Below are positions 9,374 to 57,500 of a DNA stretch of 64,000 nucleotides, one piece after another. The position numbers and the translations under genes were made by a program. Below the pieces are notes generated by a model that saw nothing but the letters and a program-made list of their open reading frames with translations, was not told the origin of the DNA and searched no databases. This DNA is from a virus. Position 1 is the stretch's first letter. Each line of letters begins with the position of its first letter. The stretch lies in IMG/VR virus record IMGVR_UViG_3300043446_005369, positions 20,376-84,375 of that record, one strand, 5' to 3'.

Positions 9374-11146
9374 TCAATTTGTAGATTTCAAAATTGAATA
9401 CAACCACTCATCACTCATTGAATTGATAATTTCATGTGCAGATTTTTCATCATTTGCATAACCTTCAGATAATAGAGAATACATAATATCTGAATAGAAT
9501 TCCTCTTTAGCCAATTGAGTTGTATATTCACCACTCCCATATTTGAATGTTTTCTTACCAAATTCTCTATTTTTCCTAAATGCATCTTCAAAATCTTTTG
9601 CGGGACCAAGTGCGGCACCACCAACAATCTTTGGGCCAACAATCTTTGAGCCAACATTCAAACGACTACGAATTGTGCCACTTGGATCTTTCGTATTATA
9701 TACATCATATTTTTGCTGTTTTTTATTCATTTGATCTGCACCAAGAATAGCACCTGCGCCAGCCACTGTTGCTGCGGCAGCACCTAAAGCTGGTTTTCTA
9801 GGAATTCCACCTTTCTTTGATGTTGCAGATTGAGATGCCAATCTTTCTAATGTTGGATTTCCACCTGAAGGACCAGTTGCCCTAAATGGAGCACGACCTC
9901 TTGAAGATGTATGACGATATGGAGAATTTGGCTTAGTGCCCCCAAACGTAGGTTGTGTTATTCCACCAGAAGGTTTAGGTGTACCTTTAGGAGCTTTGGC
10001 TATATTCTGTGAATTGGATCTAGCCATCGATTTGCCTGTCGTGCCCCCAAAAGTAGGTTGTGTTATTCCACCAGAAGGTCTAGGTGTACCTTTAGGCATC
10101 TTGGCTAAAGTTTGCGTATTAGATGATGCCATTGATTTACCTACCGATCCAAATTCCGGTTGAGATATATTGCCAGAAGGTTTAGTGGCACCTTTAGGCA
10201 TCTTGGCTAAAGATTGTGTATTAGATGATGCCATTGACTTTCCTGCAGTATTTTTTGCTGCAGGAAGTAATCCTTTTGGTTCTGGTGATGGTTTTGGTAA
10301 AAATCTACCAGGAAGTGGACTAGAAGGACCTTCTCTCGGTAATCCATATTGTTTTGGCTTAGAGCCTTTCATAAATTGCATCCAAGGATCTGCAGCTGCT
10401 CCAGCTACTTTTCTAGCTGCAGGGGCGACTTTTTGACCAACATTTTTAACTGTACTTGCAATCGGCGCTGCAGCTCTAGATACCCCGGATATTGCTTTTG
10501 ATACTGGCAATCCGGCCATTTGTGCTACCCCAAGCATAGTAGCTAAAATTGTAGGATCCGCAGCAGCTCTTTGCGCAATTTTCTGAGGACTAGGACCACC
10601 TGCAGCAGTATGTCTCTCCCATCCCTTTTGCACAAAAGATCCTCCACTGGAAGAAGCTCTCTTCTGGGCAAGCATATCTGCATACTTATTTGGAGCTTCT
10701 GGTGCAGGTGGTTTTCTTGCAGCTCTTGCTTGTTGAATTGCTCTAGTTTGAGTTGCTCTTGCTTGAGGATTTAGAATTTTACCTGTCTTTCCGAATCCAC
10801 CAGGAGTATATCCTTTTTTGGCTAAAGTTTTTGCAGACATTCCTCTAACTGCGGGAGTCACCTTTTTAAGTACTCCGCCGGCAGCCTTTAATCCAGCTTT
10901 TATAAGTCCTGTACTTACTTCTGCAATATAAGATTCATCTAACAATTGTTCTTGATTACAATATTCCAGAATATCATCAATAAATGTATCCGAAAGATCA
11001 TTTTCAATAATCAGACTTGCGAAGTACTCAGATTCTTCTACGTGTTCAAATATATTGAGTTCTTCACAAAAATTTACTATATCCCCGTAAAAACTACTTT
11101 CATCATAACAATATACATCTTGATACGCTTCGTAAAGTGATTTCAT
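9374..11146 (-). CDS. Repeat-containing putative virion protein (590 aa)
   Basis: The N-terminus is MKSLYEAYQDVY followed by an acidic helical region (20-80; NFCEELNIFEHVEE, SDTFIDDILEYCNQEQLLDESYIAE). The central 90-480 region is Ala/Pro/Gly/Lys-rich with three tandem repeats at 302-404. A short hydrophobic Ala/Gly stretch (about 460-475; ALGAAAATVAGAGAILGA) precedes the acidic end (SDIMYSLLSEGYANDEKSAHEIINSMSDEWLYSIL). The ends resemble the 286-aa protein at 6220-7080. A perfect TATAAATA lies 21 bases upstream. I recognise the general style from marine T4-like structural proteins but can assign no function. Confidence 0.68.
   Translation of the reverse strand: MKSLYEAYQDVYCYDESSFYGDIVNFCEELNIFEHVEESEYFASLIIENDLSDTFIDDILEYCNQEQLLDESYIAEVSTGLIKAGLKAAGGVLKKVTPAVRGMSAKTLAKKGYTPGGFGKTGKILNPQARATQTRAIQQARAARKPPAPEAPNKYADMLAQKRASSSGGSFVQKGWERHTAAGGPSPQKIAQRAAADPTILATMLGVAQMAGLPVSKAISGVSRAAAPIASTVKNVGQKVAPAARKVAGAAADPWMQFMKGSKPKQYGLPREGPSSPLPGRFLPKPSPEPKGLLPAAKNTAGKSMASSNTQSLAKMPKGATKPSGNISQPEFGSVGKSMASSNTQTLAKMPKGTPRPSGGITQPTFGGTTGKSMARSNSQNIAKAPKGTPKPSGGITQPTFGGTKPNSPYRHTSSRGRAPFRATGPSGGNPTLERLASQSATSKKGGIPRKPALGAAAATVAGAGAILGADQMNKKQQKYDVYNTKDPSGTIRSRLNVGSKIVGPKIVGGAALGPAKDFEDAFRKNREFGKKTFKYGSGEYTTQLAKEEFYSDIMYSLLSEGYANDEKSAHEIINSMSDEWLYSILKSTN
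9935..10243 (-). repeat. Three tandem repeats of about 34-35 codons
   Basis: Residues 302-335, 336-370 and 371-404 of the 590-aa protein repeat the pattern GKSMA-SNTQ-LAK-PKG-(T/A)-PSG-ITQP-FG. Copies 2 and 3 are most alike; copy 1 has more substitutions. Units are about 102-105 bases. Confidence 0.9.
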
Positions 11147-14380: not shown

Positions 14381-15808
14381 TCAACGATTTCCTCGATATT
14401 GAATAGCATCCTTAATGCTGTTATATTCTGCACTACTTCCTGACAAATGACCATCATCGACTACCATAACTTCATCATACCCACTTCTTTCGATTAACTT
14501 CGTTTTTACTTCTAATTGTTTCTTTTCTTTTTGTATTCTTCTTAAGAATGCATAATGTATGATTTGTGTAAAATATGCAAAGGGGTTTCTAGATTTTTCT
14601 GGATCAAAATTATGAATGTATTGTATACAATTTCCAGTAAGAAGACCATTACCCAAAACAAAAGAATTAGTTTCTGGTTCTTCTAAACAAAATACCTCAT
14701 CTTCACCATACTCTTTGATGTATCTCACCTTTGGTTGATAGTGTTCGGGTTTCGCTAAAGTAATTACATTTAAAGGTTTTCCATTTTTGAATGAGTCATC
14801 ATTTTCTGTTCTTTCAATAATTCTATGACTAATTATATGAAAACCAGCATAAGATGAATAATAAACTAACCATTCTGCAGCATCGGAATTACTAGTACTA
14901 ATTTGTAATCTATTTGTTGAGGTTGTTTTATATCCATCAGCTAACCACCATCCATATATAAATCCAGCGATATATTCTGGGTCAGTTGTAAATGGCAGAT
15001 CTTTAACTAGAGGGTATTTTCCAATATAAAAACAAGGATCACCATTAGCATGTTTTGGGTATGTGGAAGTATATCCAAAATCTGTTAATAATGCAACTAT
15101 TTCATCCTTAACCGAATCTTGTTTACATACCCGGATTCGTGCATATTTATTACCCTGCGATACTACCAAAGGATCCCCATAGGTTACGGATTTATGTCCA
15201 GAACCATCACCGTAAAGAATCCCGTGCAAAACTGCATTCTTATCATAAGTATTTTCTATAGGAGCATTCTGAAGACAATCACCTATTTTTAAATTAGTAA
15301 TGACTTCATTTTTATAATATAAACACCTATTTTTATTTCTCCTAGAGGAAACAAACCATCGATGATTCTCTGTGCATATAACTTTTTGATATACATCTTT
15401 CTCAGGAACATTGAATGATGAAAATCCATATTCATAAAGCATTTGAGTTCCATAAGATTTAACTAATGCTTCTCTCCATTTACCGTCAATACACCTAATT
15501 GTAACTTTCTTATTTACTATCTTTTCGATTTCTATTGGCCCATATTCAATTGTAGGAATAATTGTGGATCTATGAAAACAGTTTTCAACTCCATCAGAAA
15601 TCATATCATCCCTAAACATGTAATTCACAAAATTTGGCTTATAGGACAAATGAGTTGCAATCTTTAAAAAACATTCTCCAAGATAATTCGTAATCTTTGG
15701 CTTAGGTAATTTCTTTTCTTTTGCTTCTTGTAGCTTTGATCTATAAACAATTAATGCTTCTAGTAGCTCTTTATTGTTCACATAATGTTCTGATTTTTTC
15801 TTGGTCAT
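14381..15808 (-). CDS. 55: Late-transcription sigma factor gp55, interrupted by an intein
   Basis: The extein halves read MTKKKSEHYVNNKELLEALI to MISDGVEN, then CIQYIHNFDPEKSRNPFAYFTQIIHYAFLRRIQKEKKQ, the signature of T4-like gp55, which directs host RNA polymerase to TATAAATA-type late promoters. Between them is a 317-residue intein. Without it the protein would be 158 aa, slightly shorter than T4 gp55 (185 aa). An ATG 15 codons upstream (15853) also exists, but it abuts a GGGGG/CCCCC hairpin, so the family-typical MTKKK start is used. The reading frame is intact throughout, so splicing is needed for a normal sigma factor. Confidence 0.93.
   Translation of the reverse strand: MTKKKSEHYVNNKELLEALIVYRSKLQEAKEKKLPKPKITNYLGECFLKIATHLSYKPNFVNYMFRDDMISDGVENCFHRSTIIPTIEYGPIEIEKIVNKKVTIRCIDGKWREALVKSYGTQMLYEYGFSSFNVPEKDVYQKVICTENHRWFVSSRRNKNRCLYYKNEVITNLKIGDCLQNAPIENTYDKNAVLHGILYGDGSGHKSVTYGDPLVVSQGNKYARIRVCKQDSVKDEIVALLTDFGYTSTYPKHANGDPCFYIGKYPLVKDLPFTTDPEYIAGFIYGWWLADGYKTTSTNRLQISTSNSDAAEWLVYYSSYAGFHIISHRIIERTENDDSFKNGKPLNVITLAKPEHYQPKVRYIKEYGEDEVFCLEEPETNSFVLGNGLLTGNCIQYIHNFDPEKSRNPFAYFTQIIHYAFLRRIQKEKKQLEVKTKLIERSGYDEVMVVDDGHLSGSSAEYNSIKDAIQYRGNR
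14630..15580 (-). other. Intein in gp55 (317 aa) with LAGLIDADG-type endonuclease domain
   Basis: Residues 77-393 of gp55. The intein starts with Cys (CFHRSTIIPT) and ends GNGLLTGN before extein Cys. Block B is TENHRW, with Thr three before His. The endonuclease core shows two LAGLIDADG-like motifs, LHGILYGDGSG and IAGFIYGWWLADG. Block F is EVFCLEE. Trp follows the block B His by two residues, Cys occupies the usual Asp site of block F, and Thr precedes Gly-Asn in block G. That is the same W/C/T triplet that defines class 3 inteins, yet Cys1 is present. The penultimate residue is Gly instead of His. Splicing is inferred from intact motifs and frame. Confidence 0.93.
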
Positions 15809-15853
15809 TGAACCTATTACTCTACGCCTGAATGTCCGTAAATTGTAGCACAT

Positions 15854-23527: not shown

Positions 23528-26471
23528 TTTTTCCACCTTTAGGATTGGGAATTTCCACCGCAGAGGTATTCATAGATGGTTCAATTGGTGTTTCTCCGGT
23601 TGGGGATTGTTCTACTCCTTGAGGGACACCACCTTGTTGATCCGTCGCAATGGGGTTTCCAAATTCATCTACTGGTTGATTTGGATTTGGTAAAATACCT
23701 TTATTAATTTCATCTTCAATTTGCATATCAATTTCAATGATTTCGGAATCAGTTTGACGCAGAATTTTTTTACGAATGTATTCTGTGGAATAATATTTCC
23801 CGATATATGGCTCAATTGTAGTTGCAAGTGTTAAACGATTTGTCATCAATTCTGCTTCCTTTAATTCGGCAAAATGATTATCATAAAGAAAATCATACTG
23901 AATATGATCTGCCATTTTCTCCCAATCTTCAGGAGAAACGATGTTTTTAAGAATTAGTTGACTTCTCAGAATATCATTAAAAACATTTGCGAATTTTTTT
24001 CTTAATCTTCCAACAAATTTGGAGAACATTAATTCGTCACGAAGAATTTCTGAAGATCTACCTAGATTAAATCCATCTCCACTACCAGCAATTCTAGATT
24101 CAGGAACTCCAAGTGCTCTATAAAGTTTTTTCTGAAAATATTGAATATCGCTGAGTTCACCTAAGTTTTGACCGCCTGGAAGAGTTGTAATTTCTGTTCC
24201 TCTTCCACCTTCTCTTCTAGGAAGCCAGAAATCTTCTAGCATACTCATGAATTTGCGATCATCTCTTATTTCACCTGTGTTTGCGTCATATACCAATTTA
24301 TTCCTATAACGAGACATAACTTCTTTTAAGTATTGCTCAGCTTTTACTTTAGGAAGATTGCCGACATCAATGTAAAAAATTCTACGTTCAGGAGCCCTCG
24401 AATTATGAACTACAATACCGTTCGCCACAAAATTATGCTTTTCATGAGAAACTTCAATATCATAAACATCCTCGACTTCTGCAGTTTCCACAGAAATAAT
24501 TTTTTCAAATTTTGGAAGTTCATATTCACTTAAATACAATTCCCAGCATTGAGTTTCTGGAATTAATCTTGTCTTATTTTCCTCACCTATAATTCTTGTT
24601 TGTTCTGGTCGGATTCTATGGCGAATTTGTCCGGAACAAAGGCCAATTGAAGTCCAGATTTCTTTAATATCTTCAATAAGCTGTTTATTTGCTAAAGAAA
24701 TTTCACATGAAAATCCATTTACTAGATCTCTATAATGTCCATCTGCATCTAGAAGTCCAAGAATAAATTCTCTTTTAATGTTATTTGGGGATGTAAATAC
24801 CCAATCTGGAATTCTCTTAATTTTAGCTCCATTTTTAAATCCAAGCTTTTGCAGAAGTTCCGAAGCAAGCGTGTTGCTTGAATGGTAATTACTATATTTT
24901 CTATTAGATTTTGACCTCGTACAATTACCAAAAAACTTTTCCATCAACTTACTATAATATAAGTTTTGAATCTCATCTTCACCTTCTGCGAATGTTACAC
25001 CATATTTTGTAATACATCCATCACCAATTAAAAATCCAAATAGTCTTGCAAATTCTTCATCGATATATTCTGGAAGATTTAGTTGATTTGTACCCCAACC
25101 ATATAGTTTTTCCTCGAATTTTGCATCTTTAAGTACTTCAATTTCTTCTTGAAGTACTGCAACATCAGAAGATTCTAATGACTGAGATCCATATAAGAAA
25201 TTTTGAATACTACTCCTATTGATATTAGTTTTTTCTGAAATTTGTTGTATAACTTTTTCTTTATTGTCAATTTTATAGGAGGACCACAAGAAAGTATCTT
25301 TTAGTTTATAGCATTTTTCTCGAACTTCTGGAAATGCAGTTTGAGTAGAGCATTCTTCTGGTCTAATGTAAGTTAAACTATGTCTTTTTGGTTGAAGATC
25401 TTTGATAGGAACGTACTTCACGTCTTTAGTCTCATTATCATAAACGAGAACTGGGTGAGTATCGGTTCCTACAACACTATGATGCTTAGACTGAACTCTA
25501 AAAGACTGTTTAGTTCCAGTTAACCACTTATTAGATACAGTTGTTTCAACTAATTTATCAACACGATTATCATAACTATAAACTTTATCTCCAACTTGAA
25601 TATCTTTAATGTATGAATAACCTTTGTCTGTTTTTACTCGGGTATCTCCAATTAAGCAAAGGCGATAAATTACCAAAGAATCTTCAATCATTCTAAGTTG
25701 ATTGAGAGCCTTAATTGCTTTATGTAAATAAGATAAAATAGTTCCTTTATTGCGATCTACAAGCCCCGAAGTGCAATATGTAATAGAGTCTTTTGCAATT
25801 TTAACTCCCTTTTTGGATCCTCCGGAAATAGTTCCACTTGGAAAATTAGGAGTCGGAGTATACACAAAATACTCTTCAATTTCAGGAAAGTTATATTGTT
25901 GAGCATCAGTTCCATCATTTAGTCTAAAATTCTTATACTTATCCGCACCATTCGAAGTTCTTTTCTCTTGACGCACATGCTTCATTTTCATTGGATCAAT
26001 ATATCTCAATTCCTGAATTCCTTTCTCAGGATTTTTTTGATCAATGACTTTTAAATAGAATAATCTTCCATCCACATACCAATTCCTAAAAATTTCATGG
26101 CATTTTTTATCAAAATCCATGATTTCTTTAATATATTTAAATTCTATTCGAATTAGTTCTTTTAATCTATCACTCGCATTTAAATTTGATAGTTCAATTT
26201 CAACTGGAGAATCATATAGGTCACTGACAATAGCTTCATTGACTACACTTTCAATTGCACCTTCACATTCTGGATGTAAAGCCATTTCTCGGTATCTTCG
26301 AATCAAGTCGTACTCAGTTCGATAAACACCTTCAATATCTACATATTGACCATAAAATCCAGATTGAATAAAATGATCAACCCCGTCCTCATTATTTGCG
26401 GGAACGGGGGAAACTATAGATTTAGATTTTTTATCATTATCATCAATTGAAAAACCAAAAAGTTTTGCCAT
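23523..26471 (-). CDS. 20: Portal vertex protein gp20, interrupted by an intein
   Basis: A 982-aa frame containing a 563-aa portal protein split by a 419-aa intein. Portal features: FIQSGFYGQYVDIEGVYRTEYDLIRRYREMALHPECEGAIESVVNEAIV near the N-terminus, then LVIYRL joined after splicing to SRAPERRIFYIDVGNLPK, and GFNLGRSSEILRDELMFSKFVGRLRKKF. The portal dodecamer is the entry for DNA and the attachment site for the neck. The extein length is near T4 gp20 (524 aa). A CTAAATA element overlaps the gp19 stop upstream. Splicing is required for a functional portal. Confidence 0.97.
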   Translation of the reverse strand: MAKLFGFSIDDNDKKSKSIVSPVPANNEDGVDHFIQSGFYGQYVDIEGVYRTEYDLIRRYREMALHPECEGAIESVVNEAIVSDLYDSPVEIELSNLNASDRLKELIRIEFKYIKEIMDFDKKCHEIFRNWYVDGRLFYLKVIDQKNPEKGIQELRYIDPMKMKHVRQEKRTSNGADKYKNFRLNDGTDAQQYNFPEIEEYFVYTPTPNFPSGTISGGSKKGVKIAKDSITYCTSGLVDRNKGTILSYLHKAIKALNQLRMIEDSLVIYRLCLIGDTRVKTDKGYSYIKDIQVGDKVYSYDNRVDKLVETTVSNKWLTGTKQSFRVQSKHHSVVGTDTHPVLVYDNETKDVKYVPIKDLQPKRHSLTYIRPEECSTQTAFPEVREKCYKLKDTFLWSSYKIDNKEKVIQQISEKTNINRSSIQNFLYGSQSLESSDVAVLQEEIEVLKDAKFEEKLYGWGTNQLNLPEYIDEEFARLFGFLIGDGCITKYGVTFAEGEDEIQNLYYSKLMEKFFGNCTRSKSNRKYSNYHSSNTLASELLQKLGFKNGAKIKRIPDWVFTSPNNIKREFILGLLDADGHYRDLVNGFSCEISLANKQLIEDIKEIWTSIGLCSGQIRHRIRPEQTRIIGEENKTRLIPETQCWELYLSEYELPKFEKIISVETAEVEDVYDIEVSHEKHNFVANGIVVHNSRAPERRIFYIDVGNLPKVKAEQYLKEVMSRYRNKLVYDANTGEIRDDRKFMSMLEDFWLPRREGGRGTEITTLPGGQNLGELSDIQYFQKKLYRALGVPESRIAGSGDGFNLGRSSEILRDELMFSKFVGRLRKKFANVFNDILRSQLILKNIVSPEDWEKMADHIQYDFLYDNHFAELKEAELMTNRLTLATTIEPYIGKYYSTEYIRKKILRQTDSEIIEIDMQIEDEINKGILPNPNQPVDEFGNPIATDQQGGVPQGVEQSPTGETPIEPSMNTSAVEIPNPKGGKI
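24402..25658 (-). other. Intein in gp20 (419 aa) with LAGLIDADG-type endonuclease domain
   Basis: Residues 272-690. It starts CLIGDTRVKTDKGY (Cys1) and ends NFVANGIVVHN before extein Ser. Block B is GTDTHPV with the TxxH motif; block F is DVYDIEVSHEKHNF, with the usual Asp; His-Asn end the intein. Two LAGLIDADG motifs are visible, ARLFGFLIGDG and FILGLLDADG. All features fit a standard class 1 intein. The insertion lies between YRL and SRAPERR, a strongly conserved portal segment. Confidence 0.96.
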
Positions 26472-29816: not shown

Positions 29817-32540
29817 TTATTGATATTCCCACATGTAGCTCCATTCGGAAGAAACATCACCATATTCATCTAAATTCCATACTTCCAGTGATCCTTTTTG
29901 ATTATTTTGATTTGCAAAAACCCACATGTCTCCAGTTTCTTTTTCAATATCAATTCCAGATAGTTCTTCTAGACCATCAGAAATAAATCCAAAAGGAGAC
30001 ATGTCTTGATCAATTTGGTTTTTTTGTTCCTCATAAATTCTTTTTCTGACATCATTATCTGTCATTTCTTTGAAATATTCTTGAGCAACAAGCCAAGCAA
30101 ATATCACAAGACACATTGCTAGATCATCATTACAACCTTCTTCAGCTTCAAATGAATTATGTTTTTGAATAAATGTGGTTAACTCTGCAATGATGTCATA
30201 ATCATTAATCATTAATTTATCATCTTCAATCAGCAATTTTAAGTTAGAGCAACCTAACTTTTTAACTGCAGATGTCATTCTTACACCCATTTGCGATTTT
30301 TTCCCACTAAAACCTGAACCAACAATCTGCCCAGCTCGACCTCTCATAGAGCACATAAGCATATTATCATATTCAAGATCATAATGCAAAATACTAGCAA
30401 CTTGCTCACCAATATCATTAACTTCTGCTAAGACCCAAGCATTGTTATAACCTTTTGCTACTTTTTCAATAATACTTGGAAAAAGCATAGGTTTGATTTC
30501 ATTATTTTTATATTTTGCTACTACTTTATATGGAAAATTGGTAATATCAAATACAATAAATGAAGAATAGTCATTTCCAATTCCTCTCGCAACATCGACA
30601 GTAATTAGATAATTATTTTCTTCTTTTGGATTTTCATATACATCTAATCCCTTTTCCCCTCTTTTAACTGGATCATCATAAGTTAAAATTTTAAGTTTAC
30701 TTGGATTGATTAATGTTCCTACAGATCCCAGGAATTCGCAAAGGTGCTCAGCCCTAAACTGTTCTTCACTAGTATTTGCAATTGTCTCTGCTTTCCACTT
30801 TTCATCTCTACCTGGAACTTCTGACCAATGAACTTCAGTAGCAACAAATTGATTTTTATTTCTTTCAGCATCGTGCCACATTCTATAGAAGTGGTTCATG
30901 CCTTTTGGTGTTGAAACGACAATAACTTTTGTTGATTTACCTGAAGAAATTGTAGGATATACAGAAGCAAAGAAATCGTCTGCAATGTGATTCGGAACGA
31001 ATGCAAATTCGTCAAGGAAGATAATATTAAATGTCATACCACGAACTGCAGATGCAGAAGTAGATGCTGCAATAATCTTAGAACCGTTTTCTAATTCTAG
31101 AGATCCTTTGTTCCACGATATAATACCCTGTTGCATCCATTTTGGTAGATTCTCATAAGATAATTGAAGTCTACTTAAAAGTTCTCTGGAAGTAGATGCC
31201 TTGTTTGCCAAAATTCCAATGTTTACGTTGTCATTAAAAACAACATAATGCAATAGATAAGATACTACGGTAGTTGAATTGTGAGTAGGTATAAATGTTT
31301 TTCCGCACAAAAATAAATGATCATCACTATCTACTTGGAGGCAACAAACTGGAACACTTTCAACTTTTTCTATTTTATGTATATAAATTCGTTTATTTTG
31401 TGGCCTTTCGTTTTTATTAAAATTAATTAATTTTATTTTTCTAGGAAGATTAAATATTTTTTCTTTACTCGCAAAACGAATCGTATAATACCAACAATTA
31501 TTAATTAATTTCCTAGATACTCTAGATTTTATTCCCAATGAAGAGAGTAATTCTATAACTTGAATAATGAGTTCGTAGTTTTTTTGATAAAATTCAAATG
31601 ATTGTGTTTTTGTTATTGACCCATCAGTGTCCATCAAACCACGAAGTAATTCCATTCTTTGTTCGACCGATGAACGAAGATATAATTCTGGAATATGCTT
31701 GTGTTTTAATAAATTATTATCTTTTAATTTTTTTTGCAAATTTTTACACTTAAATGTAATACAATTATTATTTTCTCTTTCATATTCAACATCAATTTTA
31801 GTTTTATAAAATTCATAATCATCTTTATGTGAAATAATTCTTCCATCCGAAGAAAATCCATCACCTAACCAAACACCAAGGAGGTATGGATCAATCGGAA
31901 GATTTTTATTTTCTCCCACAAAAGGATTTGTATAATCGATATATAATGATCCGATTACGCCCCTTCCTCTTTTATTGTTTATTTTTTTTAAATATTTTGA
32001 ATAAATCTCATTTGTTGTTAATATTTTTTTTCCAGTTCTCCAATATACCGAATTTACTTCCCATAAATGATCACCATCAGCAATAATTTCTTCCCCATTA
32101 TCAAAATATATTTTATAACATTGATGATTAAACATCGTTTCTGTTTTAAAAGTAACAGAAACAGGATTGCCGCTTGGTGATAGTATTTTATCTCCAACTT
32201 TAACTTCCTCCATTGTTGTCCAACCAGCTGGAGTTGGAATAGGAGTATCCAATGCCAAAGCCTTTCCAACCTGTCTAGGCATCTTGCAAATATTAAATCT
32301 GTTTTTATGGAAATTTGTAATCAGTTTTTCTTGAAATGGCCATAAGTTAAATTTAACTAAGCCATCATCTACGTTTACGATTTTAATATAATTTTTAGCA
32401 AAATATACAGGATCTTCCTTACACTTCAAAAATTCAATGACTTGCTCTTCAGTCCATTGAATAGGGGTATTTGCTCTCTTTAAATTTGGATTGGAGAGAT
32501 AAGCATCACCTTGTTTTAATTGGATATCTTCAATTGCCAT
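29817..32540 (-). CDS. 17: Terminase large subunit gp17, interrupted by an intein
   Basis: A 907-aa frame coding for a 579-aa packaging ATPase/nuclease split by a 328-aa intein. The ATPase Walker A is PRQVGK joined to STTVV after splicing; Walker B is NIIFLDEFAF. The nuclease domain has VDVARGIGNDYSSF and a later GCNDDLAMCLVIFAW. T4 gp17 is 610 aa. It translocates DNA through the gp20 portal and cuts concatemers. The intein interrupts the P-loop between Lys and Ser, so the unspliced protein cannot bind ATP normally. Confidence 0.97.
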   Translation of the reverse strand: MAIEDIQLKQGDAYLSNPNLKRANTPIQWTEEQVIEFLKCKEDPVYFAKNYIKIVNVDDGLVKFNLWPFQEKLITNFHKNRFNICKMPRQVGKALALDTPIPTPAGWTTMEEVKVGDKILSPSGNPVSVTFKTETMFNHQCYKIYFDNGEEIIADGDHLWEVNSVYWRTGKKILTTNEIYSKYLKKINNKRGRGVIGSLYIDYTNPFVGENKNLPIDPYLLGVWLGDGFSSDGRIISHKDDYEFYKTKIDVEYERENNNCITFKCKNLQKKLKDNNLLKHKHIPELYLRSSVEQRMELLRGLMDTDGSITKTQSFEFYQKNYELIIQVIELLSSLGIKSRVSRKLINNCWYYTIRFASKEKIFNLPRKIKLINFNKNERPQNKRIYIHKIEKVESVPVCCLQVDSDDHLFLCGKTFIPTHNSTTVVSYLLHYVVFNDNVNIGILANKASTSRELLSRLQLSYENLPKWMQQGIISWNKGSLELENGSKIIAASTSASAVRGMTFNIIFLDEFAFVPNHIADDFFASVYPTISSGKSTKVIVVSTPKGMNHFYRMWHDAERNKNQFVATEVHWSEVPGRDEKWKAETIANTSEEQFRAEHLCEFLGSVGTLINPSKLKILTYDDPVKRGEKGLDVYENPKEENNYLITVDVARGIGNDYSSFIVFDITNFPYKVVAKYKNNEIKPMLFPSIIEKVAKGYNNAWVLAEVNDIGEQVASILHYDLEYDNMLMCSMRGRAGQIVGSGFSGKKSQMGVRMTSAVKKLGCSNLKLLIEDDKLMINDYDIIAELTTFIQKHNSFEAEEGCNDDLAMCLVIFAWLVAQEYFKEMTDNDVRKRIYEEQKNQIDQDMSPFGFISDGLEELSGIDIEKETGDMWVFANQNNQKGSLEVWNLDEYGDVSSEWSYMWEYQ
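31278..32261 (-). other. Class 3-type intein in gp17 (328 aa) with LAGLIDADG-type endonuclease domain
   Basis: Residues 94-421. It starts with Ala (ALALDTPIPT), not Cys or Ser, and ends FIPTHN before extein Ser. Block B is GDHLW: Trp lies two after the His, and the usual Thr three before it is absent. Block F is PVCCLQV, with Cys at the normal Asp position. Block G ends Thr-His-Asn. Trp/Cys/Thr at these sites is the signature of class 3 inteins, which use the block F Cys as first nucleophile. Two LAGLIDADG motifs are present, LLGVWLGDG and LLRGLMDTDG. Confidence 0.94.
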
Positions 32541-48575: not shown

Positions 48576-51500
48576 TTAATTTAATTTTTTAGCCAAAGCA
48601 CCAGTATCTCTTAAGCCATATTTTCGTCTTTGTATAGTAGGATAAGTGGATAGTCCAGAGCTATATCCATTTGTAGTAATACCGATGCTGGAAGTATATC
48701 CAGAAACTCCAATAGAAATAGGAGAGGATGATCTACTAAATCCGGATAATCTACCCCAAGAGATATTTCCCACTGGATATTTTTCCGTTCCTATTGTTGT
48801 AATACCGACTATATTAGTACTAGTAGAAATATTACATGTTATAATTCCAGTTATTGCATTATATGCATGTACATAATAGATATTATTCAAAAATGAAGTA
48901 CTAATTGCTACAATATCTGATTGGGACACACCTAAAGAAGTGACCCCAGAACCTACGTTAGTATTATTAATGTAAATTGGGTAGCCAACTTTCAATTCGG
49001 AAAGATTTGAAGGAGATGTAATAATATTGAATTTAAGAGCCAATGGGGCTCCAATTCCAGTTGTAGTTGAAATTCCAACTATAGGGCAAGTAAATCCTTC
49101 AATATTAGATATATTTTTTATAGTTTCAACGTCAACTGAATTATTTTTATAATGGTAAATAATGGCATCAATATCAGATAAAGAATTACTTTCATATTCA
49201 AACAATTCAGTATTATCCACAAATAATTCAGTTGAAGATGAAGTAAATCCTCGAATTATATTTGCGGTGGGAAATATCTGAGATTCTAATGAGTCTCTAG
49301 ATTTAGAAACTTCTTCATTATTAATAATTAAATCAGTCTTTTGTTTGGTCCAATATAAAGGTTTTAAATTGTTTTCATCTATACCTAATCCTTTATATGT
49401 TTCAGTTTCAATCGTATTAGATGAAGTAATATTATATACAATTCTCTTATCTTGAGTGATAGTACTGGTTATATCATTATTACTAAAGACTTGAACATTA
49501 TCCCCAGTTTTTATAACAGTATTCACATTCACTAAGAAAGAATCGTCATTAATAGTACCCCTATAGAAGAATATTGAGACATTATCCTCTACCTTAGGGG
49601 GAGTAGTGAATTCGAATGATGTTCCTCCACTAAAACGATAAGCAACACTAGGTTCTTGTAGTATACCATTAATAAAAATTAATAAAACGGAATCTAAATC
49701 TATAAGTTGAGAATCGGAATTATTACTATCATTTTGAAAACTAAGAAGTTCACCACGATAATATAATGGAAATCTTGTTCTTATTCCATCTTGATATGAC
49801 TTAACTGAATCAATATAATCTAGTTCTCCAAATTGCCAGCACGCAAACGAATCATTGAAGGTTTCTAGAACAGTTAAAGTGAACTCATTAATAGGGGAAG
49901 ATAATCCGGATGCGGTAACTAATCCAACTGGTTTAAATACATCACCCTTCCTAAATCCGTAACCATTTCTGGTAACTTTAAATGAGTTTATCTCAAATAA
50001 AGTAGAACCTATTCCAGTTGATGAACTTGGTGACACTTCTACATTTAGAAGCAATCCAACCCCAGTTTCCGTTGTTTGTCCTATACCTATTCTAGAAACA
50101 CCTATAACTGAAAGGTCTTCATAAACTCCAGGCTCATATCCTAGTCCAATACTAGATCCCAGAGAAACAATCATTCCTCCCCTAGGTAATTGATTCTGAT
50201 TAATATCACTATCACTAATAAAGATATTCTGAGTATTTGCTGAAGTAATTCCCGTAAACGTAATACTTGTAATACCAGAATTTAGATTTTCATTTATAAT
50301 ATAATTATTTTTTGAATTATTTGTTGTAGTTGGAGATTGAAAAATACTATTAATCAAAACTATACCATTTCCACCTGTAGTTCCTAATCCTACCGTGTTT
50401 ATACCGAGTTTAGTAAGTCTGAATGTATTGGCAATTCCAGTAAATTGATCAGAAATATCATCATAAATTTGATTTGTAGTATAGTCATTTCTTAAAAATA
50501 CTCTACCATTAAATTCAGCTCTTTCTCTTGAAAGATTTTGATCATTAGGATAAATTAGATCTAAAGAGTTTCCTCTAGGCGCTTGAGTGAAATAAATTTT
50601 GTTACCTGAGATGTTGTAGGATCCCCTGTAAACCCCCACTGAAGACGAATCAGTATGAATCCCCGGTAAGGACCCCAAGAAGCCCCTTGTAGCCTCTACT
50701 AGGGGCACATTACCGGCATATGTGATTGGACCGATATTGGTAGTTCCGAGACCAACATTATTTACATTTAAATATTCATTATCAATCTTCAAAATGTCAT
50801 TTATTCGTATTGAAGTAATACCACTTAAAGCGAAAATCGTAGAAGATGCCCCAATCTGTCCACCATTACCATTTAGCGTATATGATACTAATGAATATGA
50901 AATTGGATATTGAATTAAATTATTAATTGTAATTAAACTTTTTTCGTTTTTCTTAGACATTTCAAGTTCATGAGCATTACCTAAGCCATATGAAGTAAAG
51001 GTAACGCCGATTCCAGATAATGCATATTCCTTTCTAGTAGCTAACCTAAAAGTAGTATTATCGTCTTTAATTGCATAAACTATTTCTGGTAATAATGTAG
51101 TCACTACTCCAACATAATTTAATGTTGCACCAATTCCCATAGGGGCAGTTCCAACTCCAATAAATGTAGATTTTGGTCGATATATGAGTTCTTCTCCAGT
51201 ACTAAAGAAATGGTCTTTAATATTGAATTGTCCAGAAGATAGAGTTAAAACTTCAGAATTTTCTGGATTAAATGTTTTCACAAAAATCGGCTGACCCTGA
51301 TAATTTAATTCAAAATCCAAACGATCAATATTTTGTAGATTTGTACCATAATAATTTGCCAATTTTACGGATTCAGTTATAGAACCATATTTTAAATCAG
51401 GTGGAATATTAATTTTATCCAAATCTTTATAGAAACTTTCATTAAAAGATAATACATTTACTAATTCATTATTTTGAGTATTTGGATAAAATACAACATT

Positions 51501-54500
51501 AAAATTATTTCCAGATATTTCTGAACCAAATGTACCAATTCCAGTCGTACTGCCTATTGATAAGAATGGTCCCTGAATTGTGTGACTATTAACTCCATCA
51601 AATACTGATAAAACCTGATGCAATGCACTTGTATTCCCATAGCCAATTTGGACTAAAGATTTGGCGGCGCTAAAGATATTTTTATCTAAAGATAGTACAA
51701 CTGTAGATCCACTTGATATACTTGTGTTTTGAGAATTATAAACAACAGTTCTTTCATTGCCATCAGATTGTCCGTTTACTTTAAAACGATAAGTTCCAAA
51801 TCCAATATTGGTATCTCCGAATGACGTAGATTTAAGATTTAAATTAACCTTTTCGTTAAGATTATTTGTATAAGTTAAGTAAACTTTTCCGCCAGATATA
51901 TCAGAGCTGAATGTTCCAATAGAAAGATTGTTTTCTTCGCCGGAATTATCAAAATAATATTCATTTAAATAAGTATCAGTTCCATTGTGTGTAAGATAAA
52001 TTTCAATATAATTAATAATACTTCCATTATCATTTGTTACATGGATATTGACAAAAAATGAAGTATATTTTGTTTTATTAAATTCTAAAATATTTGTAGT
52101 TGCATTAGCATTAATCGATTTAGTTGTTGAAATTAAATCGACAAATCCAACTGATTGAGTACTTGCAATCCCCACACTATTGAAAGTATTCTGTAAAATT
52201 TTAATATCAAAAGCGGAATTTTCTGTATCATAAGGTTCCAATTTCAAATAAAAGTTTTGAGACTCATTAATATATCCCGATACATTAACTAGATAAGGTT
52301 TATTGTTAGAAATAACTATATTATTTTTAACTAAATTATACGCATTTTTATTATTATTAATTGTTACAATTTCGCTAAATTGAATTTCATTATTCAATTT
52401 ATTCTGAATCAATACTAAAAATTTATTATATCTATTTCTCTTTTCCAGAGTAAGAATATTTGATATATCTTGATCTCTTTCATCGTCATAACTTGAAAAT
52501 TCATTACTAATATCATCGATTTTCAATACTCTATTGGTTTTACACAGAATATAATCAGATAGATTAAGAGTATTAAATTCTAAAAATTTAGACTTGCCAT
52601 TTAGCGTATCCACATCGAGAACTAAATCCAAATTATTAATAGTATCTACTCGAAGATCACTAATATAGTCTTTAATTAAAATATTGCTTAAGGCTTCAGT
52701 GGTTCCAATTCCTGGACCAACTCTGCCCAATGGGCTAGAGATAATTTGCGTATCTGCAAAATTTTTCAGACCACTAGTGTGCAATAAATTATTTACAGGA
52801 GTTACAATTTCTTCCCAAGTTTTAGTACTCTTTACAGTATAGGATAAATTTTGATAATAATCATTATCAGGTAAACGCTGAGTATCATCACTTAATTTTC
52901 CAGTATTATACTGCCAATCATTATTTTGTCGATTAAAATAATTTGTATTATAGATTCCATTAATAGATTGAATTAAATCTATAGTTGCGATATTTGAAGA
53001 TTCTACTCCTTTTATTATATTATTTAAATTGAGTGAATCATTACCAAAAACTTTAATAAAGTTTTGATTTGAATATTTAATAATTAAATCAGTATCTTCA
53101 TATTGATTTGTATTTCCATTCAAAATTAATAATCTTTCTCCAACTAAAAATTCTGAAATTTCTTGTTCAACCTTAAACTGTGGATAATTTTTGCGATTTA
53201 CAATCGTAGCATATCCATATTGAATCGCCTTTGGTATTCCCGGATTATCTGTATATTCAGAAATATCAAATTCGAGTATAGCGGGATCGGTACTGTAGTA
53301 ATTTGTGATGGTAAAAAATTGATATTCATAGTCTGATGAATTAAGTCCATCTCCAATGTTATCAATATTTTCGATGCCTTCTACAAAAATCTGATCCCCG
53401 ACTTCAAAAGGTATATTTCCAAATCCACCAAAAGGTGTGGTTAATGTACATCTGACAATAGAACCAATCAATTCAACACGATAAACACTAATTCCATTTG
53501 AATTATTAATTGTTTTTAGTGTAATTGGATTGTTAGGTAATCCTTTAGGATTTACAACAATTTCTATATTCCCTATAGAAGATCCGGAAAGTTTAGCTTT
53601 TAATAACCCAGAATTAATCAGTTCTCCAGTATCACTATTAATACAAATAACATCAGGAGGAGAAATATAATTTTTTCCACTATTTAAAATTTCTATACTC
53701 TTAATTGTATTTGAAGATGATACATATAAATTTTTTGCAATATTTGCTATTGGTCTTAATGTTTTATCTGATGAATATTCAAATCCTTCATTTATAGTTT
53801 TAGTTTGTTTGATTCTGCCTATGGAATTCGAAACTGGAACTATAAATGCTCCTGATCCATTTGTAGTAATTAGATTACTAACATTTGGAATCTTTTTATA
53901 ACCAAATCCACCAGAAGAAAGTGAAATTCTATGAATACCCCCAAGTGCAGTATTTGAATTAGTATAATATTCTATGACATCACACTGATTTCTATTATAT
54001 GTTAATCTTTCTGGATATTGATTTAATGAAATCGTAAATGATGTATTATTTTTATCAATTATATTAAATGTACCATTATATGAACTATCTTGATAGGTTA
54101 TTTCTGCATATGATAGAACCTCGTTATCTAAATTGATAGGAATTCCATTCTTCTCAAGATTATAATATAATTTATTGGGTATATTTTCCGAATATTTTAA
54201 CGTTAATGATGCATTTGTAGAAACTCCAGGAGTTCCAACTTTAGTTAATAAGATATTATCACTCTCTCCATCCGATATAAATTTTTTAGTATAATTTATA
54301 TCAGCATACAAATTAAAATCATATCCGGCCAAAGAAGAATCAATTAAGTTGAATTTAACATTATTATTTCTAATTAAGAATAATGACGGATTAATTAAAC
54401 TGATTGTATGAATTCCCAATCCTGAAGATTGTATGTCTATGATTACCGGAGGTGTAGAAATACTATTCAAATAAGTATCAGATAGACTAATATTATTTTC

Positions 54501-57500
54501 ATCTATTTTGTAAATAAAATAGTCACTATTAGATAATCCGCTTGGTGGAGTATTACTTTCAAAAAATATTTTATCTCCAGTATTAAAATCGTGCTCTCCA
54601 ATTTCAATGGAATTTTGTAAAGTATTGACTTTAGTGGAACTAATTCCAATTGAATTAATTAATAATTTATTTCGTGATTGATTAAATTTAACTCTAATAT
54701 CAGTAGAAGTACCAATTCCTACAGATAGAGATGGTTTAATGGTTAAGGATATTTGATCACCATAATTTAAATTATGACTTGTAGAAACTGAAACTACTGT
54801 ATTAATTCGATTCAAATCTACCAACACCGGATTATACTTAGTTTCGATAGAATAATCATAATTATCAGATCCCGATGTAATAAAATAAACTCCATCTGAA
54901 GTTGTTGTGAGACCAATATTAGTAACAACTCCAATAAAATCTTTAGATTTATTAATTACATAAAGAGATTCTGAATTTTCATTTAATATATTAAATGATG
55001 ACTCTTCTGGGTCATTTTTTACTGTGATTGATGATGATCCAGTTTCTTTTCTGAATAAAAGCTCCTGGCCAGTTTTAAATTGATGATTTGGTAAGTATAT
55101 ATTTTGTGTTGGAATAAAGATACTATATTCCGTAGTACCAACAGTATATGTTGTAGAAATTCCAGAACCACTAATTGTACCGATACCTAGACTATAGGTT
55201 GGATTAAAATAAATTTTTCGATTATTCTGTGAATTGAATATAGTTGTAGATTTATTGATTAATATAGAATCTGGTAGGAATCTTACAATAGAACCGGAAG
55301 AATGTGCGACGCCAGCTGAAGACCTTTTTGCTTTAATAATATTATAATTCAAATAGGTATTAAGGACAGAGAAAATTTCATTATCTATTTTAATACTACT
55401 TCCAATGGAAATATTATTTGGTATATGAGATAAGTAAATATCAGTATATTTTCCAGTAGATGAATAGTTAGGAATTGATTTACTTATAGTAGAACTAAAT
55501 GAAGTGACTCCAATTGTATATTTTCCATTGACATTCGATAATCCGGAAATGACAATATTATCACCATTAGAAAAATTATGATAAGGAGTGATAGTAAGTT
55601 TTAATTTATTTTCATTTTCCCAAGTAATCGGAATATTATTATAAGTAGTTACACTTGTTTGTACATTTAGTATGTCTACTCCGGTTACTTCTGAAACTTC
55701 TGCAGCAACTCCCTGCCCATTAGTATCAATTTCATTGAATACTAATTCATCACCAACAGAATAATTTTTTCCAGCATTAATAATTTCAAAACCATTTACA
55801 CTACCAGAACTAACTGATTCTACGATCGTTTTTTGAGATACAATTTCATTCGATTCAATGATAAAATCATTATCTGAATATTGATCATTGACTTTATATG
55901 GGTAAGTATTTCTGATCAATGAAGAATTATTAAAATCAAATGATTGATTTAGTATATCATTATCGGTTAATGGTTCAGAACGATAACTATTTCCAATAAA
56001 ATACGGAAATTGTCCAACTATTTCCCCATCATCATTTATTTCAATTGTTGCAAAATAAGCATAAACTCCATTTGGAAAATCTTTAGTTTTTCCAAATCTT
56101 CCATTGAATTGATCTAAATCTCCTGAATCATCATATACATAATCTTCAACAAAATATCCATACGGAAAATCCGAAACTGGTGGTCTATTTGTTATATTTG
56201 ACGAAACATAACTTGTTTTTAATTCTTTAATTGGTGAATTTTTATTCTTAGAATCACTATACCCATAAGGTCCATAGATTGGATTCCCATCATATGCCCA
56301 ACCAATAATAGGAGAATGTTCTTGACTATCTTTTCCTTGATCATTAAGATAATTTTTAAGATTTTGAGAGTATGAGATTACTGAATACTGTAAATTAGTA
56401 TCTGTTCCAAGTAGCAATTCACTGCATGTATTTCGGTAAGAATTTTTTTGAATTCCATAACGAACTGCATTATTTACTGTCAGTGCTCTTACATTTGCTT
56501 GTATAAAAGCATTTTTACCAGAAGATATTGCATAAATTGATGTATTTTTTGATGTATACCCACTTCCGGAATGAAGAATTATGACATCAATTATTTTATT
56601 ATTTTGTATAACTGCTCTTAATTTAGCACCAATACCATCACCTACAACAATTAATTCTGGTGTTGAATAATAATCGATTCCACTATACTGAACAGCCACG
56701 CTCACAATTTTGCCATTTTGAATTAATGTACTAAATTGCGCCCCAGAACCATTTTTAATATCAATTTTTGGTCTTTGATGAATATTTAAAATTTTAGATC
56801 CATAATTTGATCCCTTTTGATAAGTATATACCTGTACGATTTCTCCCTTTACAACTGGATCTGCGGTAATGGATTCGACTATATTTGTATTTTCACTACC
56901 AGCAAGAGTATAATATACGTTTAATTTAATATCAGGATAACTAAAAATTTGATAACCTACTCCACTACTTGTAAATTTTAGATATTTTTTCTGCTCATAA
57001 TTTGTTCGTATTGTTCCTCCAATTCCTGCATCACAAAGTTTAAATTTATTAGAATCAATTTTTAAAACATAATAATAATTTTCTGTGGATATACCAGTAA
57101 TAGAATTATTATTATATGAGTATTGAATTAACTCTCCATCGGAAAATCCATGATTTATATAATTAATTGAATAATCACTTGTAGATATTTCTGAAGGTGA
57201 TACTCTAAGTTTTCTATTTGTATAATTTTGCCCACCATGAATAACTTTAATTTCCTTTAAAGTATTTTTTAATTCAGTTTTAAATTTATGAATTCCCGCA
57301 TTTCCAATTGTAGTAAATCCTACAGTATTAATTCCTAAATTATAATCATTAATATTTTCATAAAGTTCAATAGTCCTATCATTTATAATTTTTGTGTAAT
57401 AGGTTGCACCATCAATTAATGATTTAGACTGATTATTATTTGATCCTTCATAATTCCCAACACCAATTGGATTGTTATTCGTATTTTTAATATAGACAAT

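Follow-up and report, generated by a model that had tools for sequence, protein, structure and literature searches.

A 317-residue intein in the late sigma factor gene (gp55) of a T4-type phage combines the Trp-Cys-Thr (WCT) triad of class 3 inteins with a class 1 type cysteine at residue 1. We consider it probable, judging from sequence, that the insert is an active, mobile intein in which the class 3 centre was assembled while Cys1 was still in use. The intein belongs to a previously unseparated family in which the chemical elements of both splicing mechanisms coexist, and a branch of this family that has lost Cys1 suggests a route by which class 1 splicing could give rise to the class 3 kind.

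The window analysed, 64 kb out of an 84,375-base virus record, contains the gene at positions 14381..15853 on the minus strand, the strand of all gp55 features described here. The 490-aa ORF (173 aa once the intein is excised) was identified as a T4-type late sigma factor by its match to phrog_234 (E 1.4e-64). The N-extein (15581..15853) ends in ISDGVEN, with Asn at position -1, and intein-free homologues align over the joined junction. The C-extein, including the stop codon, occupies 14381..14629 and forms a second phrog_234 stretch; its first residue, Cys+1 (14627..14629), is present in intein-free gp55. The joined extein query is covered to 80% or more by 2,357 phage records. Because intein-free alleles such as L416 read straight through the site (SDGIEN-CVQYIHNF), both boundaries are fixed. 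A miscalled boundary was likewise ruled out by intein-free alleles of gp55 and of the class II reductase described below. The Asn-Cys repeat at the two ends (N/C, the slash marking the junction) leaves a one-residue ambiguity in the excised stretch; Cys1 was placed as residue 1 because the mechanism and the homologues put it there.

The intein itself (14630..15580; ORF residues 92-408) extends from Cys1 to Asn317. It begins with CFHRST (residues 1-6), the block A cysteine (15578..15580) being the presumptive N-terminal nucleophile of class 1 type. Block B, TENHRW (residues 70-75; 15356..15373), supplies Thr70 at B:7, His73 at B:10 and the triad residue Trp75 at B:12. Block F, EVFCLEE (residues 295-301; 14678..14698), has the triad residue Cys298 at F:4 (codon 14687-14689), and block G, LLTGN (residues 313-317; 14630..14644), comprises the triad residue Thr315 at G:5, the penultimate Gly316 and Asn317. 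Between blocks B and F lie two LAGLIDADG endonuclease motifs, HGILYGDGSG (15197..15226), in which G120, G124, D125 and G126 are invariant in alignment A3, and IYGWWLADG (14933..14959), matched by PF14528 with an E value of 3e-4, just under the cut-off. An earlier note on this DNA had described Cys1, the class 3 triplet and a penultimate Gly in the gp55 intein and had placed Trp, Cys and Thr at the positions that they occupy in the intein of the phage's gp17 gene; both descriptions were borne out, W75, C298 and T315 aligning with the gp17 intein. The gp55 intein thus carries the class 1 signature (Cys1, a TxxH motif formed by T70 and H73, N317 and Cys+1) along with the full class 3 triad, and its Cys1 sets it apart both from class 3, which is defined by having no Cys at residue 1, and from class 2, which has no nucleophile there. 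It also shows the features by which we delimit the family described below: Cys1 or Pro1, the WCT triad, in most cases a TGN terminus, and an N/C site with Cys+1.

The gp55 copies are under purifying selection, with pN values of 0.10-0.20 against pS values of 0.60-0.71, and the codons for Cys1 and Cys298 switch between TGT and TGC among them with the residue unchanged. An AlphaFold model of the intein (pLDDT 90) is made up of a HINT splicing domain and a LAGLIDADG endonuclease. It matches NpuDnaE (Z 18.0), the class 3 structure 6bs8 (Z 16.2) and the WCT variant of gp41-1, 6riz (Z 16.1); since class 1 and class 3 structures align about equally well, the model leaves the mechanism undecided.

A search with the gp55 intein returned 15 viral loci, including gp55 copies with 77-83% identity, plus one at 69%, and clamp-loader and ribonucleotide reductase copies with about 47% identity. 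Wider searches were made with patterns that mostly required the family's own endonuclease motifs, so that members without these motifs may be missed; the phage host genes found for the family are gp55, the clamp loader and many ribonucleotide reductases. A different pattern found a Cys1+WCT mini-intein that has no endonuclease and ends in THN/C, in a reductase gene (L414:1501-1935). A scan of genome contigs yielded 5 loci in all, of which two are close; one is in Magnetospirillum, on a contig that is also recorded as viral (L014/L256). Ninety-one unique family inteins were aligned. Trp at B:12 and Cys at F:4 are found in 91/91, a count that includes L362, which clusters with inteins of class Ia reductases (see below); without it the figure is 90/90. 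At G:5 there are 85 Thr, 4 Ser, 1 Met and 1 Val. B:10 is His in every member and B:7 is Thr in all but one (90/91), whereas G:6 is Gly in 74 of 91; the terminal residue, G:7, is Asn in 85 and Gln in 6. Cys+1 is present in 91/91 of the tallied set and Asn occupies position -1 in 84/91. Residue 1 is Cys in 80 members and Pro in 11. Among relatives, Ser+1 or Thr+1 replaces Cys+1 in L405, L411, L412 and L407, and a terminal Gln occurs in L407, L019, L063, L065, L237 and L252.

Two reference sets were tallied in the same way. The class 1 set, 47 inteins drawn from the genomes of two phyla and a gp20 pair, never has Trp at B:12 (0/47). F:4 is Cys in 4 and Asp in 39, and Thr occurs at G:5 in 2; this sample was filtered to start with Cys and is for that reason uninformative on how often Cys1 is lost. 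The 21 canonical class 3 inteins have Trp in 20 and Cys, Thr and G:6 His in 21 each; their +1 residue is Ser or Thr, B:7 is mostly Asp, and residue 1 is one of A, P, L, S, Q, D or E. Taken together, the three tallies show that the gp55 family joins the complete class 3 triad to class 1 features (Cys1, TxxH, Cys+1). The possibility, raised by the earlier note, that Trp or Thr is there by chance was not borne out: the triad persists across 91 unique relatives in several host genes, and B:12 Trp is absent from the class 1 sample. Chance convergence in one divergent sequence was accordingly discarded, its probability being negligible.

All 11 Pro1 inteins lie at a single class II reductase site, where the sequence reads MTAGxALERDNVAGYN/PVxGxT at the N-terminal junction and TGN/CSYxxxDDPRxFDE at the C-terminal one. 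The same site is occupied by the Cys1 inteins L048, L050, L053, L208 and L209. That Pro is indeed residue 1 follows from the intein-free allele L415, annotated as a cobalamin-dependent reductase, which reads AGYN-CSYLPVDD. Trp, F:4 Cys, Thr, Gly and Cys+1 are retained in 11/11. A tree of full-length inteins, used to place these sequences and built from 306 columns including the endonuclease, from which residue 1, the triad columns and G:6 had been removed, unites the Pro1 inteins in one clade (support 99/98). This clade is sister to the Cys1 inteins L209, L053, L074, L050 and L208 (99/89), most of which sit at the same N/C reductase site; the next branches are the Cys1 intein L061 (99/90) and, beyond it, a broader set of Cys1 inteins (100/93). 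A tree of the splicing domain, rooted on class 1 inteins, likewise places the Pro1 members inside the family (100/98; whole family 92/95), and it is this outgroup that gives the change its direction, from Cys1 to Pro1. A constraint uniting the Cys1 members alone in one clade was, however, not rejected on the splicing domain (p 0.37). Pro1 members have diverged with pN values of 0.18-0.29 and pS values of 0.61-0.86, indicating that they have long been maintained under constraint. Among the gp17 inteins, a canonical class 3 family, some copies (L111, L160, L165) also have Pro at residue 1 and others Ala; Pro1 thus recurs among class 3-type inteins.

The relation of the family to canonical class 3 was examined by trees and constraint tests of the splicing domain, which rest on 110-112 columns, and by profile comparisons in which the triad, residue 1 and G:6 had been masked out. 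In the free tree the 21 canonical class 3 inteins form a clade of their own (100/99), with the gp55 family outside it. Constraining the family and class 3 to be one clade was not rejected (p 0.40), nor was the union of the Pro1 members with class 3 (p 0.29; 112 columns). In the masked profiles the Pro1 members score 226 against the Cys1 family, the family 142 against class 1, and the Pro1 members 105 against class 1; the scores are 87 between class 3 and class 1, 63 between the family and class 3, and 24 between the Pro1 members and class 3. These scores point to two separate origins of the triad, one in the gp55 family and one in canonical class 3, but fall short of proof, since the union constraints were not rejected. 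The splicing-domain phylogeny proposed in the earlier note as a check sets the gp55 family apart from canonical class 3 in the free tree while leaving their union unrejected (p 0.40). The note's suggestion of an intermediate between class 1 and class 3 holds up within the gp55 family itself; as an ancestor of canonical class 3 the family is unlikely, canonical class 3 being a separate clade and farther from it than class 1 is in the profiles, although the constraint tests on 112 columns do not reject kinship. Within the canonical class 3 group falls L360 (Mycobacterium phage Alice), an intein with WCT and Ala1 in a gene annotated as DarB-like.

Class Ia (nrdA/nrdE) reductase inteins, a widespread phage group that includes those of ICP1, Staphylococcus St1.CM and Corynebacterium Stickynote (331 phage records match one of them), join the Cys1+WCT family with support 91/96. 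Nine were read. They share with it Cys1 (9/9), F:4 Cys (8, with 1 Asp), G:5 Thr (8, with 1 Ala), mostly Gly at G:6, and Cys+1, but differ in B:12 (7 Phe, 1 Tyr, 1 Trp), in an insertion site that is mostly SNL/C, and in a divergent endonuclease. The sequences concerned are L417-L424 and L362, with Trp in L362 alone, possibly a second gain of the triad. The simplest order of events, drawn from these nine sequences and one moderately supported clade, would have F:4 Asp to Cys and G:5 Val to Thr first, B:12 Phe to Trp next and the loss of Cys1 last.

The sequence anatomy, the conservation across the family, the nesting of the Pro1 clade and the purifying selection are seen directly, whereas splicing activity and the part played by each cysteine are inferred. 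The gp55 intein most likely initiates splicing at Cys1, as class 1 inteins do, while already possessing a class 3-like centre. Cys1 would form the first thioester by an N-S acyl shift aided by His73 and Thr70. The acyl group would then pass to Cys+1; Cys298, which stands where most class 1 inteins have Asp, would either assist or serve as a relay nucleophile, and Trp75 and Thr315 would keep both Cys298 and the C-terminal tripeptide positioned much as in class 3. Asn317 would cyclise without a penultimate His and the exteins would join. Cys1 is regarded as the working first nucleophile because, outside the Pro1 clade, it is kept even though F:4 Cys is present throughout, while residue 1 drifts in class 3; F:4 Cys and Trp are conserved more strictly than Cys1, which argues that they too are used, as helper, relay or second nucleophile. 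In the one clade at the class II reductase site, where Cys1 has given way to Pro, the obvious candidate for starting the reaction is F:4 Cys, as in class 3, with direct attack by Cys+1 as the alternative. It is tempting to go further and to propose, tentatively, that the family has both initiating nucleophiles, Cys1 and F:4 Cys, on its pathway, as a relay or, as the earlier note suggested for the gp55 intein, as either/or, and that it gave rise independently to a second class 3-type lineage, the Pro1 clade, in which Cys1 was lost after the triad was complete.

The most serious rival to a class 3-like centre assembled around a working Cys1 is a plain class 1 intein, in which F:4 Cys merely replaces Asp, as it does in other class 1 inteins, Trp packs and Thr tunes the C-terminal step, the resemblance to class 3 involving no second nucleophile and the Pro1 clade being class 2-like through Cys+1. 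We give this reading roughly a one-in-three standing. Cys is the second commonest F:4 residue among inteins (PMC4031507), gp41-1, a class 1 intein, has Thr at G:5 (PMC12245125), and the class Ia reductase sisters, which pair F:4 Cys and Thr with Cys1 and Phe at B:12, indicate that both residues can function in a class 1 setting; the invariance of Cys+1 in the tallied set would also suit a class 2-like route. Against this reading, Trp at B:12 is absent from the class 1 sample but present in every family member, alongside an invariant F:4 Cys, and a class 2-like route would not require the F:4 Cys found in all 11 Pro1 members. The penultimate Gly carries no weight in this question. The earlier note was right that Gly316 stands in place of His, but its value as a class marker was dropped, since the class 1 RDF intein of a mycobacteriophage (Bethlehem), compared here on this residue by description, also has a penultimate Gly (Gly316), splices well, and is slowed by the change G316H (PMC5050341).

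It is rather improbable that the gp55 intein is already class 3 in mechanism, with Cys298 attacking the N-terminal junction and Cys1 a leftover. The Ser1 of Catera gp206, and experiments on it, were reportedly described by Tori and Perler in 2011. Catera gp206 is classed as class 3 (PMC3196547), and L351, of this type, likewise combines a complete triad with a nucleophilic residue 1 inside the canonical class 3 clade; it is, however, a single Ser1 member with a THN/T end, not a Cys1 family. Against a class 3 mechanism, residue 1 drifts in class 3, whereas the deeply diverged family members outside the Pro1 clade all have Cys1; the Thr at B:7 matches class 1 and is not Asp-like; and Cys+1 with mostly Gly at G:6 contrasts with the THN/S or THN/T of class 3. 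Unlikely too is descent of the gp55 family and canonical class 3 from one triad-bearing ancestor, which would make the family a genuine link between class 1 and class 3. The unrejected union constraints and the Pro1 copies of the gp17 family would accord with it, but the masked profiles put the family and class 3 each nearer to class 1 than to one another, and the free tree separates class 3 and joins the family with the class Ia reductase inteins (see above).

Known class 3 inteins (Bethlehem DnaB, MsmDnaB1 6bs8, MchDnaB1 6rix, gp17) resemble the gp55 intein in Trp B:12, Cys F:4, Thr G:5 and His B:10, and share with it a LAGLIDADG insertion and a phage setting. The gp55 intein differs in Cys1, Thr B:7, Gly G:6, Cys+1 and its separate clade; in class 3, Cys1 is missing, B:7 is mostly Asp, G:6 is His and the +1 residue is Ser or Thr. 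Natural gp41-1 has Thr at G:5 like the gp55 intein, but Phe at B:12 and Asp at F:4; its engineered WCT variant (6riz; C1A F65W D107C), which has the same triad without Cys1, gave no productive splicing (PMC7664689). Class 3 is described as having arisen once (PMC4031507, PMC3196547), and in the accepted view the loss of Cys1 came first and later changes rescued splicing (PMC3196547). Direct evolution of class 3 from class 1 has been disputed, and a separate origin argued, on the grounds that the changes must coincide and that the gp41-1 graft failed; WCT is said there to occur in class 3 alone (PMC7664689). For one published catalogue, which lists 1,701 class 3 inteins, the criterion was absence of Cys at the N-end and its presence at F:4 (PMC7891396), a definition that would leave out the Cys1+WCT family. 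Phage reductase inteins as such are already known (PMC3653736); no published Cys1+WCT family or Pro1 offshoot was found in the literature searched, which was covered in part. WCT by itself is an insufficient criterion for a class 3 call. Each proposed intermediate is alive in nature, as Cys1 with Cys and Thr, Cys1 with WCT, and Pro1 with WCT, and naturally matched sequences at one insertion site offer a handle on which nucleophile is used and on when Cys1 becomes dispensable. If the family indeed has dual nucleophiles and an independent Pro1 lineage, class 3 would be polyphyletic and reachable from class 1 in single steps.

Two further inteins lie in the window, both on the minus strand. The gp17 terminase intein (31278..32261) is canonical class 3, with A1, GDHLWEV, VCCLQV and FIPTHN/S, that is, Ala1, the W, C and T of the triad and a THN/S end; it has matches to two solved class 3 structures, 6bs8 (E 4e-26) and 6rix (E 1e-24). 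The gp20 portal intein (24402..25658) is an ordinary class 1 intein (C1, HPV, VYDIEV, VVHN/S). With the Cys1+WCT intein of gp55, this one phage has three inteins of three kinds, in its sigma factor, terminase and portal genes. Among the other ORFs of the minus strand, that at 9374-11146 (590 aa) is without a PHROG match and contains repeated blocks, such as GKSMASSNTQ..AKMPKG..PSGxIxQPxFG. The 3814-aa ORF at 48576-60020, in which a YHYH domain alone was recognised, adjoins baseplate genes and probably encodes a tail or adhesion protein.
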